From Carnobacterium mobile DSM 4848 (GTDB lineage: Bacteria; Bacillota; Bacilli; Lactobacillales; Carnobacteriaceae), in NCBI RefSeq assembly GCF_000744825.1, contig NZ_JQMR01000001.1:2217501-2281500 (forward strand): a stretch of 64,000 nucleotides of DNA. The letters run 5' to 3'. Below are positions 12,065 through 55,966 of the stretch, piece by piece. The notes under the pieces were generated by a model. The model worked only from the letters and a program-made list of their open reading frames with translations. It did no database searches and was not told the DNA's origin. Numbering within the stretch: the stretch's first letter is position 1; every line of letters starts with the position of its first letter. A program made the position numbers and the translations under genes.

Positions 12065-13366
12065 ATGCGTATAGTTGATTTAATTGCCAAAAAACAACAT
12101 GGAGAAGCTTTGAAAACAGAAGAAATTAAATTTATGGTTCAAGGATTTACTACTGGGGAAATACCGGATTATCAAATGAGTGCCATGTTGATGGCGATTT
12201 ACTTTAAAGGTATGAATGACCAAGAACGCAGTGATTTAACCATGAGCATGGTAGAATCAGGAGAAACGATTGATTTATCGGCTATTCATGGTGTGAAAGT
12301 AGATAAACATTCTACTGGAGGAGTAGGAGATACCACAACTTTAGTTTTGGCTCCATTAGTGGCGAGTTTAGGGGTTCCTATTGCAAAAATGAGCGGACGC
12401 GGTTTGGGACATACTGGCGGAACCATTGATAAATTAGAAGCCATTCCAGGTTTCCATGTTGAATTGTCGCAAGAAGATTTTATCGAATTAGTCAATAAAA
12501 ATAAAGTCGCAGTTGTGGGACAATCGGGCAATTTAACACCAGCAGACAAAAAATTATATGCTTTACGCGATGTCACTGGAACTGTTGAATCTATTCCTTT
12601 AATAGCCAGTTCCATTATGAGCAAAAAAATTGCTGCCGGGGCAGATGCCATTGTTTTAGATGTGAAGACCGGGGCAGGAGCCTTTATGAAAAATGACGAA
12701 GATGCTCGTGAATTAGCACATGCCATGGTGAAAATCGGCAATATGGTAGGCCGTAATACTATGGCTGTTATTTCTGATATGAGCCAGCCCTTAGGATACG
12801 CTATCGGCAATGCCTTAGAAGTTAAAGAAGCTATTGATACATTAAACGGACATGGGCCTGCTGATTTAGTAGAACTTTGTTTAACATTAGGCAGTCAGAT
12901 GGTCCATTTGGCTGGAATCGGTAATGACTTGGCAGAAGCCAGAGATTTATTGGAAGAAAACTTGCATAATGGAAAAGCCTTAGAAAAATTTAAAGTCTTT
13001 GCAGCTTCCCAAGGCGGAGATACTGCCGTAATCGATTATCCGGAACAACTGCCGCAAGCAGCCTATCAAATAGAAGTGAAAGCAGCAAGAGATGGGGTAG
13101 TTTCTGGAATCGTAGCTGATGAATTAGGCATAGCTGCCATGATGTTAGGTGCGGGACGGGCAACTAAAGAAAGTAAAATTGATTTAGCCGTTGGGTTAAT
13201 GTTGAATAAAAAAGTTGGCGATGCAGTCAAACAAGGCGAGTCCTTGGTAACGATTCACAGTAACCAAACAGATAATTCAGCCGTAGAAGCTAAAATCAAA
13301 AACAGTATCACGATATCGGATGACGCTCAGCCGCTGCCATTGATTCATGAAGTGATTACAGACTAA
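12065..13366 (+). CDS. pdp: Pyrimidine-nucleoside phosphorylase
   Basis: A 433-residue enzyme that phosphorolyses uridine, deoxyuridine and thymidine to the base and (deoxy)ribose-1-phosphate. Visible are [20 protein letters not shown] (about residue 80), [16 protein letters not shown] (about 110) and the signature [20 protein letters not shown] (about 164-183). Length and motif order match bacterial Pdp/thymidine phosphorylase. The start has an AAAGGAG site. It lies 124 bases downstream of rpiA, which fits use of nucleoside-derived ribose. Confidence 0.95.
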
Positions 13367-13460
13367 AATAGGTAAAAGGCTGTTTAAGGGAACGTTGAAT
13401 TAGCTTATTTTAGCAATAAAGTGTTGTAACACCATAAAAAGTATTTTTGTGTTTTGCATT

Positions 13461-13661
13461 GGACAAATATAAAGAAAAACTCTTTAGTTTGTCTATTTCA
13501 AGTTGAAAACGGACGAATCGATGGTTACTTTCTAACGATTCGTCCGTTTTGATTCAGTTTTGGACAAACAGAGATAAAATGGTTCAGACTTGTCTATTTT
13601 CCTTCAAAAGGGGACCATTTTGAAGGAAATAACTTAAACTTGTCCATTTTTTGAATGAAGC
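13461..13661. repeat. Tandem array of four ~50-bp hairpin units (GGACAAA...TTTGTCY family)
   Basis: Units begin with GGAC at 13461, 13511, 13562 and 13612 (spacing 50, 51, 50). Each has its complementary GTC[C/T] arm ending 33-34 bases after unit start: GGACAAA/TTTGTCT, GGACGAATCG/CGATTCGTCC (15-bp stem at 13506-13520/13536-13550), GGACAA/TTGTCT and GGAC/GTCC. An extra CCTTCAAAA/TTTTGAAGG stem spans 13601-13626. No coding frame or ribosome site is present. The 400-nt gap around it holds nothing else apart from the terminator at its right end. Confidence 0.75.
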
Positions 13662-13727
13662 ACTTTAATTTTCCCCACGGCAATGGTTTTGTTCAACAAG
13701 GAGAACCAATCAAAGACACTGAAAAAT

Positions 13728-13771
13728 AAATCAGAGACAAATTAGAAAAAAATTCTATTTATCTCTGGTTT
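13728..13771. terminator. Bidirectional terminator
   Basis: AAATCAGAGACAAAT pairs with ATTTATCTCTGGTTT (one mismatch, one G-U) with T-rich flanks on both strands. On the minus strand it ends the small membrane protein gene, overlapping its stop codon. Confidence 0.7.
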
Positions 13772-13988
13772 ATTTTTTTTGATTTTGTTCCGGATCTGCA
13801 AATAAATAGCGAAAGAACAACACGACAATAATGAAAACCCCTAGAACTAAAATACTGCTCATTAAAACGTGTAAATAAGACCAGAAACCTCCATTAGAAA
13901 TCAATGCTCTTAGTCCTGAAGAAAAGAAATAACCGAGAAAATAAAAAATACTGATAAAAAAACTGCTGTAGACAACTCTTTTTAACAT
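13770..13988 (-). CDS. Small membrane protein, unknown function
   Basis: A 72-residue protein with two clear hydrophobic segments (about residues 5-25 and 37-62) and a charged C-terminus DPEQNQKK. I do not recognise a family. It is likely real: it has a GCGGGAG ribosome binding site, a good promoter (see 14024-14051) and its own terminator. It is transcribed alone, divergently from azlC. Confidence 0.7.
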   Translation of the reverse strand: MLKRVVYSSFFISIFYFLGYFFSSGLRALISNGGFWSYLHVLMSSILVLGVFIIVVLFFRYLFADPEQNQKK

Positions 13989-14023
13989 AAAACTCCCGCT
14001 TTCAAAAAGTAATGGTTACTCTT

Positions 14024-14051
14024 ATTATACTGAATCGTTTTATTAAGACAA
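14024..14051 (-). promoter_or_regulatory. Promoter of the 72-residue membrane protein gene
   Basis: On the minus strand: TTGTCT (14046-14051), 16-bp spacer, perfect TATAAT (14024-14029), 36 bases before the start codon. Confidence 0.75.
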
Positions 14052-14106
14052 TTTATTTTGTTAATAGAACAATGAAATTAGAATGAAAAAGCAGTGTGAA
14101 GCATGC

Positions 14107-14112
14107 TATACT
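14107..14112 (+). promoter_or_regulatory. Extended -10 element before azlC
   Basis: TGCTATACT gives an extended -10 (TGN plus TATACT). No good -35 is seen, which is normal for extended -10 promoters. Confidence 0.5.
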
Positions 14113-14147
14113 TATTTTTACAGTTTTAGTTTGAAAGGAGTGTACAT

Positions 14148-14858
14148 ATGAAAGTACAAGATTGGCGAGCAGGGTTTAAAGTAATATATCCTGTCTTGCT
14201 TGGCTATATACCTTTAGGTTTAGCTTGCGGTATGCTGCTGCATGATGCTGGGTTTAGTACACTAGCTATTTTACTAATGAGTTTATTGGTTTTTGCTGGG
14301 GCCAGCCAATTTATGGCAGCTTCAATGGTGGCTATGGGAGCTACGACGCCGGCAATCATTATAATGGTTTTTTTCTTAAACTTACGCCATTCATTGATGA
14401 GCTCAAGCATGTCCAATCGTGTCAAGAAAAGCTCTATTCCATTTATCCTGCTTTTTAGTCACACATTAGCCGACGAAGCTTACGCAGTAAATTATAATCA
14501 ATTTCAGAACCATGAGTGGTCAGAACAAAAAGCATTGGCTGCTAATTTGCTAGCTTATCTGACATGGTGTATCAGCACCGCTATAGGCGGAGTACTTGGC
14601 AGTGCACTGGTTGTTAACACCGTTATCATGAATTATATTTTAATTTCGATGTTTATTTATTTATTAGTCAGTCAGTTTGTTTCCAAGGTAGTGGTCTTTG
14701 TCGGTTTGTTTTCTGGCGTACTATCCGTCATTTTGATGCTTTTGTTAAAGCATAATATTGCACTTGTTATTGCAGCTATTTTAGCTTCTTTTGTTGGTTA
14801 TTTTATTGAAGACTATTTAGCTAAAAAGAAAATTAAAGGCGGTGAATGGATAAAGTGA
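14148..14858 (+). CDS. azlC: AzlC family branched-chain amino acid exporter, large subunit
   Basis: A 236-residue membrane protein with the family-typical start (GFKVIYPVLLGYIPLGLACG), FAGASQFMA near residue 50 and NLRHSLMSSSM near 78, with about six transmembrane segments. AzlC and AzlD together export branched-chain amino acids and analogues. The GAAAGGAGTG site fixes the start. Its last codons overlap the start of azlD by 13 bases, so the pair is coupled. Confidence 0.92.
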   Translation: MKVQDWRAGFKVIYPVLLGYIPLGLACGMLLHDAGFSTLAILLMSLLVFAGASQFMAASMVAMGATTPAIIIMVFFLNLRHSLMSSSMSNRVKKSSIPFILLFSHTLADEAYAVNYNQFQNHEWSEQKALAANLLAYLTWCISTAIGGVLGSALVVNTVIMNYILISMFIYLLVSQFVSKVVVFVGLFSGVLSVILMLLLKHNIALVIAAILASFVGYFIEDYLAKKKIKGGEWIK

Positions 14859-32779: not shown

Positions 32780-32937
32780 TTTGCGTGCCCTGAGTCGTTT
32801 AACTCTCTAGTGTTAGGGCAGGTAAACTCCTTTTACCTGCCCTAAGCCGCTTAAATACCAATTGTTAAGGCAGGGAAATCTGTTTTGCGTGCTCTAAGTG
32901 TGAGAGATGCTATCACTTAAGGCACGCAAATTTTTTT
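32780..32937. repeat. Tandem array of three ~52-bp hairpin units ending in a T tract
   Basis: Units start at TTTT 32780, 32831 and 32883. Each reads TTTT-RCSTGCYCTRAG, a central variable part, then a complementary TTARGGCA-type arm. The unit junction also gives a perfect 14-bp stem TTAGGGCAGGTAAA/TTTACCTGCCCTAA (32813-32845). The last unit, TTTGCGTGCTCTAAGTG / CACTTAAGGCACGCAAA (32884-32930, two mismatches), is followed by T8 and could terminate plus-strand transcription. No gene is credible in 32562-33005. Confidence 0.7.
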
Positions 32938-54255: not shown

Positions 54256-54537
54256 GGGGCAAACAATCATTAAAACAGGTTGTGTTTGTCTCGAAAGCGC
54301 CAAAATGGGACAAACAATCGCAAAAACAAGTTGTGTTTGTCCCGAAAGTGCCAAAACGGGACAAACAATCGCAAAAACAAGCTTTGTTTGTCTCGAAAGC
54401 GCCAAAATGGGACAAACAATCATTGAAACAAGTTGTGTTTGTCCCGAAAGTGCTAAAATGGGACAAACAATCATTAAAACAAGTTGTGTTTGTCCCGACA
54501 GTGCTAAAACGAGACAAACAATCGCAAAAACAGATGG
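54256..54537. repeat. Tandem array of six 51-bp hairpin units (GGGACAAACA...TGTTTGTCCC)
   Basis: Units begin at 54256, 54307, 54358, 54409, 54460 and 54511 (exactly 51 bp apart; the last is partial). Each has GGGACAAACA at its start and TGTTTGTCCC 27 bases later, forming a 10-bp stem with a 17-nt loop, then CGAAAGYGCYAAAAY as linker. Changes in the arms (CCC to CTC, GGGA to GAGA or GGGG) mostly keep pairing through G-U. Because 51 is divisible by 3, long frames stay open on both strands, but none has a ribosome binding site. Confidence 0.85.
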
Positions 54538-54600
54538 ATTCGTCTTGATTTGATTAAAGAAGAGCATCGAGAATTCTTTTGCTCCATTCTTCAAAGAGCA

Positions 54601-55618: not shown

Positions 55619-55827
55619 TATTATCACTTCCATTAAAAGTATTTGGATCAGTTTACCAAAAAAAGAAACTTCAAGTAAAAAAACTCATAAGTAGTACTTA
55701 GACACGTTATGCTACTGCTAAATCCAATTAAACACGAACGATTAATTATAAAAAAAGTAAATAGTTAATTTATTCATTGTGTTTATCAAAAAAATCATTT
55801 ATACTGATGAAGATAAAGGAATATACT

Positions 55828-55966
55828 CTAATATAATTAAGCGATATGGGCTTTAAGTTTCTACCGGACACCGTAAATGTTCCGACTATTAGTAGGATAA
55901 GCGCTTTTTTTGTTTGTCCATCATTAGTCGAGCCGGAACGGTTGGCAGAGTGCCAACTGTTTTTTG
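55828..55966 (+). ncRNA. Guanine-class purine riboswitch with terminator/antiterminator
   Basis: The aptamer core matches the purine riboswitch: ATATAAT, GATATGGG, AAGTTTCTACC (55855-55865), ACACCGTAAATG, CCGACTATT. The ligand-contacting pyrimidine in GACTAT (55886) is C, which specifies guanine/hypoxanthine rather than adenine. An antiterminator GTTCC-GACTA (55879-55888) can pair with TAGTC...GGAAC (55925-55939). The competing terminator AACGGTTGGCA / TGCCAACTGTT (55937-55961) with a T tail shares AAC with it. Ligand binding should therefore switch off the purine permease gene downstream. Confidence 0.93.

Follow-up and report, generated by a model that had tools for sequence, protein, structure and literature searches.

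CRISPR arrays consist of fixed-length direct repeats that alternate with variable stretches of fixed length. REP and BIME elements are described as intergenic palindromes of 20-40 bp with a GTAG or CGTC tag, clustered in some families and located mostly between convergent or co-directional genes (PMC3733652). In the pneumococcus, a low-GC Firmicute, the BOX, RUP and SPRITE repeats are intergenic and over-represented between convergent genes; BOX copies have a modular sequence with boxA and boxC ends, and their boxB modules occur in tandem (PMC3049150). The Efa repeats of Enterococcus faecalis form stem-loops near 3' ends and are described as larger than REPs (PMC1590033).

The array at positions 13461-13645 of the window (the whole 64,000-nucleotide stretch that we analysed) has something in common with each of these systems. 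On our best reading, it belongs to a class of minisatellites scattered over intergenic DNA, in which the letters drift while the repeat length stays near 51-52 bp. Like CRISPR arrays, members of this class alternate fixed-length direct repeats with fixed-length variable stretches; in contrast to CRISPR, the variable stretch is itself repeated inside each array and the linkers are 16-17 nt long, so that interior and linker recur within each array where CRISPR would have unique spacers. The likeness to REP/BIME lies in intergenic palindromes at convergent or co-directional gene ends, whereas the strict 50-52 bp period and the locus-specific interiors differ from REP/BIME as the relevant parts of that source describe them (PMC3733652). 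With six repeated entries from relative G003 dropped, 54 arrays remain, of which 28 lie in convergent gaps, 21 in tandem gaps and 5 in divergent ones, in agreement with the location of REPs. The arrays end in GGACAA/TTGTCC rather than in a REP tag, with CGTC seen only within some arms (TTCGTCC), and the Y1 (RAYT-type) transposase family PF01797 has no match in the host genome, compared to 5 positives among 14 control genomes. RAYT-driven REPs are ruled out by this missing match. Because neither the tag nor the transposase is present, the arrays may work like REP/BIME and we do not call them REPs. The arrays resemble BOX in being intergenic, in their preference for convergent genes and in their tandem modules (PMC3049150); unlike BOX, as far as its description in that source goes, they share little beyond six bases on each side, plus the linker in g33, a second genus from another family of the same order. 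Like Efa, they are stem-loop-forming repeats of a low-GC Firmicute that lie close to 3' ends, but the parts of the source that describe Efa do not present it as fixed-period tandem arrays (PMC1590033). Among the titles listed by full-text searches of the open-access literature (PMC, with subscription papers outside the scope), none concerned these arrays.

Table 1 Features in and around the arrays (window coordinates, except where a contig label is given).
Feature	Position	Strand	Remarks
Pyrimidine-nucleoside phosphorylase gene	12065..13366	+	array begins 95 bp past gene end
Unit 1	13461..13494	.	34-nt inverted repeat, GGACAAAT...GTTTGTCT
Linker 1	13495..13510	.	16 nt
Unit 2	13511..13545	.	35 nt; 10-bp arms GGACGAATCG/CGATTCGTCC
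Linker 2	13546..13561	.	16 nt
Unit 3	13562..13595	.	34 nt; GGACAAAC...ACTTGTCT
Linker 3	13596..13611	.	16 nt
Unit 4	13612..13645	.	34 nt, degenerate; just 4 end pairs, then mismatch
Inverted repeat, 21-nt arms	13722..13777	.	between array and next ORF
72-aa ORF	13770..13988	-	converges on array; no Pfam match
Third array of window	32784..32926	.	three units, period 52; arms of type CGTGCCCTAA/TTAGGGCACG
Second GGACAA-type array of window	54257..54546	.	six units, last degenerate; period 51
Purine riboswitch aptamer	55809..55908		Rfam RF00167, 63.5 bits
Alkalibacterium period-52 array	L082:2152-2405
Alkalibacterium period-52 array	L088:2161-2472
Alkalibacterium period-52 array	L114:2235-2409

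The preliminary description had placed four GGAC starts in this array, each answered by GTCT or GTCC at the unit's end, and all of these positions are right. Units of 34, 35, 34 and 34 nt are separated by three linkers of exactly 16 nt, and the unit ends pair over 8 (two G-T), 10, 6 (one G-T) and 4 positions, then mismatch. We scored chains of GGAC starts spaced by 48-54 bp, provided that a GTCC or GTCT end followed every start at a suitable distance, and found a chain of four units here. In 2000 dinucleotide shuffles of the surrounding 781 bp (13367-14147) the longest chain was 0 (1928 shuffles) or 1 (72), and in 60 shuffles of the whole window it was 0 (2) or 1 (58); equally regular spacing in shuffled DNA, named beforehand as the outcome that would overturn the array, did not appear, as no shuffle of either kind contained even two units. 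The array is real. It is absent from the output of Tandem Repeats Finder (TRF) because its units differ too much. The array previously reported at 54.26 kb is likewise present and of the GGACAA type, although catalogue rules score it as five units. A third array in the window has the same period class with arms unrelated to the GGACAA type; the same arm type recurs in a period-52 array of relative G001 (L300:16541-16690), a genome with zero matches to the GGACAA patterns.

The suggestion that such arrays form a dispersed family was borne out. In the 2.63-Mb host genome, which holds 11 catalogued arrays, the pattern GGAC-n26-28-GTCC-n15-17-GGAC has 41 forward matches, compared to 1 and 0 for the reversed pattern. 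These counts and the shuffles rule out that GGAC/GTCC motifs simply accumulated by chance in AT-rich DNA, an explanation to which we give practically no weight. A catalogue drawn from sampled stretches has 60 entries, 11 from the host genome, 18 from family relatives (7 of them a single higher-order locus of G003) and 31 from g33. The G003 locus, L187:3379-4871, is a higher-order repeat of 225-228 bp in which each copy has two GGACAAG-type units 102 bp apart. A stricter pattern has matches in 14 of 295 genomes of the order, with 19 forward matches in the host genome and 94, 45, 44 and 5 in four g33 genomes, that is, dozens in three of the four; by our count from the table, the reversed control matches three times over all 295 genomes. 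In the four other genomes of the host genus, the perfect GGACAAAC hairpin has no match, and a looser pattern has matches in two. Judged by the neighbouring gene, the nearest named relative is the MAG Carnobacterium sp. HKST-UBA02, at 86% protein identity, which suggests that the host resembles Carnobacterium.

We also ran the covariance model from ten units that had been proposed as a check. At E<=1, 535 kb of host genome contained 78 matches to it, a count that covers both strands and includes the ten source units; 75 of these lie in arrays or in the single unit of L158, and 3 lie elsewhere. In 448 kb from 40 of 80 comparison loci there was one match (E 0.045). In the first covariance search, 27 of the 28 sequences were chosen stretches, 7 of them around known arrays, so that search is no census.

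At L151:6736-6870, three units with a period of 51 start with GGACCATAT and have ATATGGT as the right arm where TTGTCC would be expected. On host contig C1, the 1.14 Mb between 7.6 kb and 1143 kb are free of GGACAA arrays and span a GC-skew flip near 0.5 Mb, the putative terminus; a gap of this size has P about 0.024, which is suggestive only, the gap having been picked post hoc. Two arrays searched against plasmids had no match. As for a phage element, we rejected this origin by eye, since 11 viral-contig stretches look like other things (operator-like GGACAA clusters or single matches), with the exception of L198, which has two units 51 bp apart. Viral contigs L190, L193, L197 and L200, and L191, L192 and L199, carry clusters of GGGACAAR-like or GGACAATTTGTCC sites, which seem operator-like and unrelated to the arrays.

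Lengths within the arrays are rigid. Catalogued units measure 35 nt in 214 of 243 cases and 34 nt in the remaining 29, and periods of 50, 51 and 52 are all present, counts that are partly imposed by the limits of the finder (units 34-36, periods 49-53). Linkers were free to range over 13-19 nt; in the host family 78 of 79 measure 16 nt, and in g33 93 of 94 measure 17 nt. Comparing 19 host-family and 29 g33 arrays, we found GGACAA and TTGTCC to be near-invariant between arrays and the information at most interior positions to stay below 0.5 bit; the g33 arrays conserve the linker too (GATTCTTynnGGTTATC). Interiors are locus-specific, and what the arrays have in common is the end hexamers, the unit length and the linker length. 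In the commonest type, 23 bp (sometimes 22) separate the GGACAA and TTGTCC half-sites inside a unit, and 16 or 17 bp separate the half-sites of one unit from those of the next. A coding minisatellite is unlikely as a general answer, given that the mixed periods of 50, 51 and 52 are not all multiples of three; short ORFs cross some arrays, and we did not accept them as genes. Copying of adjacent DNA into the arrays is ruled out as well, because there is no excess of shared words: over 48 arrays (linkerless entries were left out, as were the G003 locus and loci L176, L209, L211 and L216), the mean longest word that units share with adjacent DNA is 9.83, compared to 9.65 with other arrays' units.

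The sequence between the hexamers tells a different story from the one first proposed, namely that the arms co-vary. Using one consensus per array (20 host-family and 30 g33 arrays, with the 34-nt-consensus arrays, three in the host family including the 13461 array and one in g33, and the six repeated G003 entries left out), we saw no rule of this kind. Pair 7-29 shows a weak excess in the host family alone (15 vs 11.6 expected, P 0.049), and from pair 8-28 inwards neither set has a pairing excess; at the outermost pair in g33, one array is compensated, with C-G for G-C (29 vs 27.1, P 0.034). For the GGACAA arrays counted, then, the stems do not show the compensatory changes between copies that would mark an RNA hairpin. 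When interiors are shuffled, the host-family arrays (n=20) have a mean folding z of -1.46 with 6-bp arms kept and -0.61 with 8-bp arms kept, three units reaching -2.4 or lower in the latter case; the corresponding means in g33 (n=30) are 0.02 and 0.19. There is some pairing signal in the host family and none in g33, and lengths are rigid in both. We take the combination of weak or absent pairing with rigid lengths to favour recognition or phasing of double-stranded DNA over selection on a stem.

These data bear directly on the alternative that the arrays are tandem RNA hairpins in 3' untranslated regions, serving message stabilisation or a two-sided stop of transcription. Such roles of hairpins are discussed for REP and BOX elements. 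Palindromic units near stop codons would fit, as would the host-family folding signal, the one compensated outer pair with the weak 7-29 excess, and some arrays without GGACAA whose arms, by eye, co-change in a hairpin-like manner. The order at our locus (phosphorylase stop codon, array, then terminator-like repeat) also agrees with this reading; we take the 13722..13777 repeat to be a putative shared terminator of the convergent genes, and in several relatives a terminator-like hairpin, identified by eye, lies close behind the phosphorylase stop codon. However, there is no general co-variation beyond the hexamers, g33 lacks the folding signal, and loop and linker lengths show a constancy that hairpins should not need. 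A consensus terminator scan of 13300-14150 found no terminator-like site and did not list the 13722..13777 repeat, and no Rfam family overlaps the arrays in the window or at 11 further loci at the gathering score. We consider RNA hairpins improbable overall and possible above all for the arrays without GGACAA.

The recurrence of the period is not confined to GGACAA arms: two kinds of scan, one arm-blind and one with TRF, turned up more arrays of unrelated sequence, and most of these once more had periods of 51-52. We scanned for three or more units of 24-55 nt at a period of unit+6 to unit+30, blind to the arms. (A strict hairpin scan missed known arrays and a loose version gave 16 chains in three local shuffles; neither was used.) In 464 kb of the host genome the arm-blind scan gave 12 entries at 9 places, seven with periods of 50-52 and the others with 49 and 57-59; most of the seven were known beforehand, and 3 of 20 roughly evenly spaced stretches held known arrays. 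Three local shuffles gave none. Among relatives, G001 had a single place in the 400 kb scanned, where the arms resemble those of the 32.8 kb array and the spacings are 52 and 39. A scan of 200 kb from G011 and G013 gave one array, 400 kb of G005 gave two irregular places, and another scan of G013, over 400 kb, gave two places, one with a period of 45 and one with 51; 60 of the 80 comparison loci gave one place, the Alkalibacterium contig L082.

TRF (period 24-130, at least 2.4 copies) found seven arrays in the same 464 kb (27, 51 four times, 52 and 81), eight in 500 kb of G013 (24, 30, 45, 51, 52, 52, 104 and 123) and three, all with a period of 52, in 90 kb of eight other Carnobacteriaceae contigs. 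In 803 kb of other bacteria it found one (38), and there were no arrays in G001 or G005 (400 kb of each) or in G011 (100 kb). The off-peak arrays of 24, 45 and 81 lie within long ORFs; those of 30 and 123 in G013 lie outside, and these non-coding periods count against a strict length rule. Near g33 arrays, TRF found four arrays without GGACAA ends, three with a period of 51, all within short ORFs (81-124 aa), and one of 104. A further array, L229:781-1336 in G017, has 10.7 copies at a period of 52 with arms ACTTG/CAAGT and lies directly upstream of the phosphorylase gene.

The strongest case is that of Alkalibacterium, where a single site carries arrays of the same period whose letters show no recognisable likeness. 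In each of three contigs (Table 1), a period-52 array lies where two genes converge, one for ribose-5-phosphate isomerase and one of the epimerase family, and these genes are orthologous across the contigs. The two proteins of L082 match those of L114 at 95.6% and 94.3% identity, and L088 is at 80-83% to either. When the three arrays are compared to each other, the best mutual match is 10 nt (E 0.17), so there is no detectable similarity. In an alignment test of palindromicity, 6 of 12 units reach P<0.05 and the other 6 do not, two GGACAA arrays among the latter. Given that some arrays without GGACAA are palindromic and others are not, the common feature is the period and the place, not the arms.

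A stop codon often lies directly before an array, and a pair of convergent genes is the most frequent setting. Gap classes come from a simple caller of ORFs of at least 100 aa; a first count with a 70-aa caller gave 20 convergent, 12 tandem and 4 divergent (n=36 arrays). The converging 72-aa ORF falls below the 100-aa limit, so that the 13461 array is scored as tandem. With P values that are optimistic, because orthologous arrays are counted separately and the caller is crude, convergent gaps are enriched in the host family (12/23 arrays vs 19/124 host-genome gaps of at least 200 bp, the background for relatives; P 0.0003) and in g33 (16/31 vs 16/62 gaps of at least 150 bp at array-bearing loci; P 0.013), and divergent gaps are depleted in both (2/23 vs 39/124, P 0.018, and 3/31 vs 18/62, P 0.029).

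Arrays also come and go at a given site. Of the 18 family genomes, each of which has the neighbouring gene, only the host genome has an array within 900 bp after it; four others have one isolated weak match each at this place. An array follows purB in 2 of the 17 genomes with the gene (the host and G011), and several others have isolated weak matches there. The best unit pair from the two purB arrays agrees at just 11/23 interior and 5/16 linker positions, and with arrays in just 2 of 17 genomes we did not assume common descent. In g33, the best interiors agree at 13/23 positions for L210/L216 and 16/23 for L178/L209, two pairs with flanks about 92-94% identical, and at 22/23 for L175/L179. 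Some sites thus turn over quickly and others slowly.

This turnover brings in the main rival to a helical ruler, a birth process with a fixed step. The arrays would then be near-neutral or selfish minisatellites, laid down head to tail with a built-in step of ~51-52 bp by a repair-, replication- or transposase-like enzyme for which the GGACAA ends would be the recognition mark, and surviving at 3' ends where insertions do least harm. One period across unrelated sequences is what such a process would leave, and presence or absence between close relatives, the poor agreement of the purB arrays and the depletion of divergent gaps all point the same way. On the other hand, the candidate enzyme family, Y1 transposases, has no match in the host genome, units are not copied from neighbouring DNA, and a birth step alone does not explain the constant 16- or 17-nt linker. 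We regard this process as rather unlikely.

We tentatively prefer, with a probability of about 0.42, the reading that the arrays are minisatellites at gene ends whose repeat length is constrained to about five helical turns and which perhaps act as REP/BIME-like architectural sites. A period that stays constant while the sequence is free hints at a ruler on the DNA. Five helical turns is the simplest ruler and suits sites that have to face in one direction; with a usual period of 50-52 bp, DNA length may be what is gauged at these places. Successive units would have to lie on one face of the DNA, in a register of about five turns per repeat, and this demand would come from a factor that binds or bridges DNA or from helical twist alone. 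The arrays would grow and be replaced by recombination or slippage that keeps the register alone, and their role at the ends of transcripts would be architectural or insulating, similar to that of REP/BIME. Against a helical constraint, one sequence-specific factor cannot account for the arrays without GGACAA, and 51-52 bp is only roughly five turns. The host-family interiors carry a folding signal, and the arms of some arrays without GGACAA co-change by eye. The catalogue lengths are partly imposed, and half of the 12 units are not significantly palindromic. A length-measuring system for non-coding DNA, in which arrays of ~51-52 bp would be made or kept at gene ends independently of sequence, seems doubtful to us; if it exists, one site would carry arrays of the same period and unrelated letters in different species.

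Repeat families are usually recognised through shared sequence, and the class of arrays described here seems to keep length instead. A physical ruler in bacterial DNA would thereby become directly testable. The arrays would provide a clean case in which to separate selection on geometry from a mutational ruler, and in lactic-acid-type bacteria they would mark gene ends that evolve fast.
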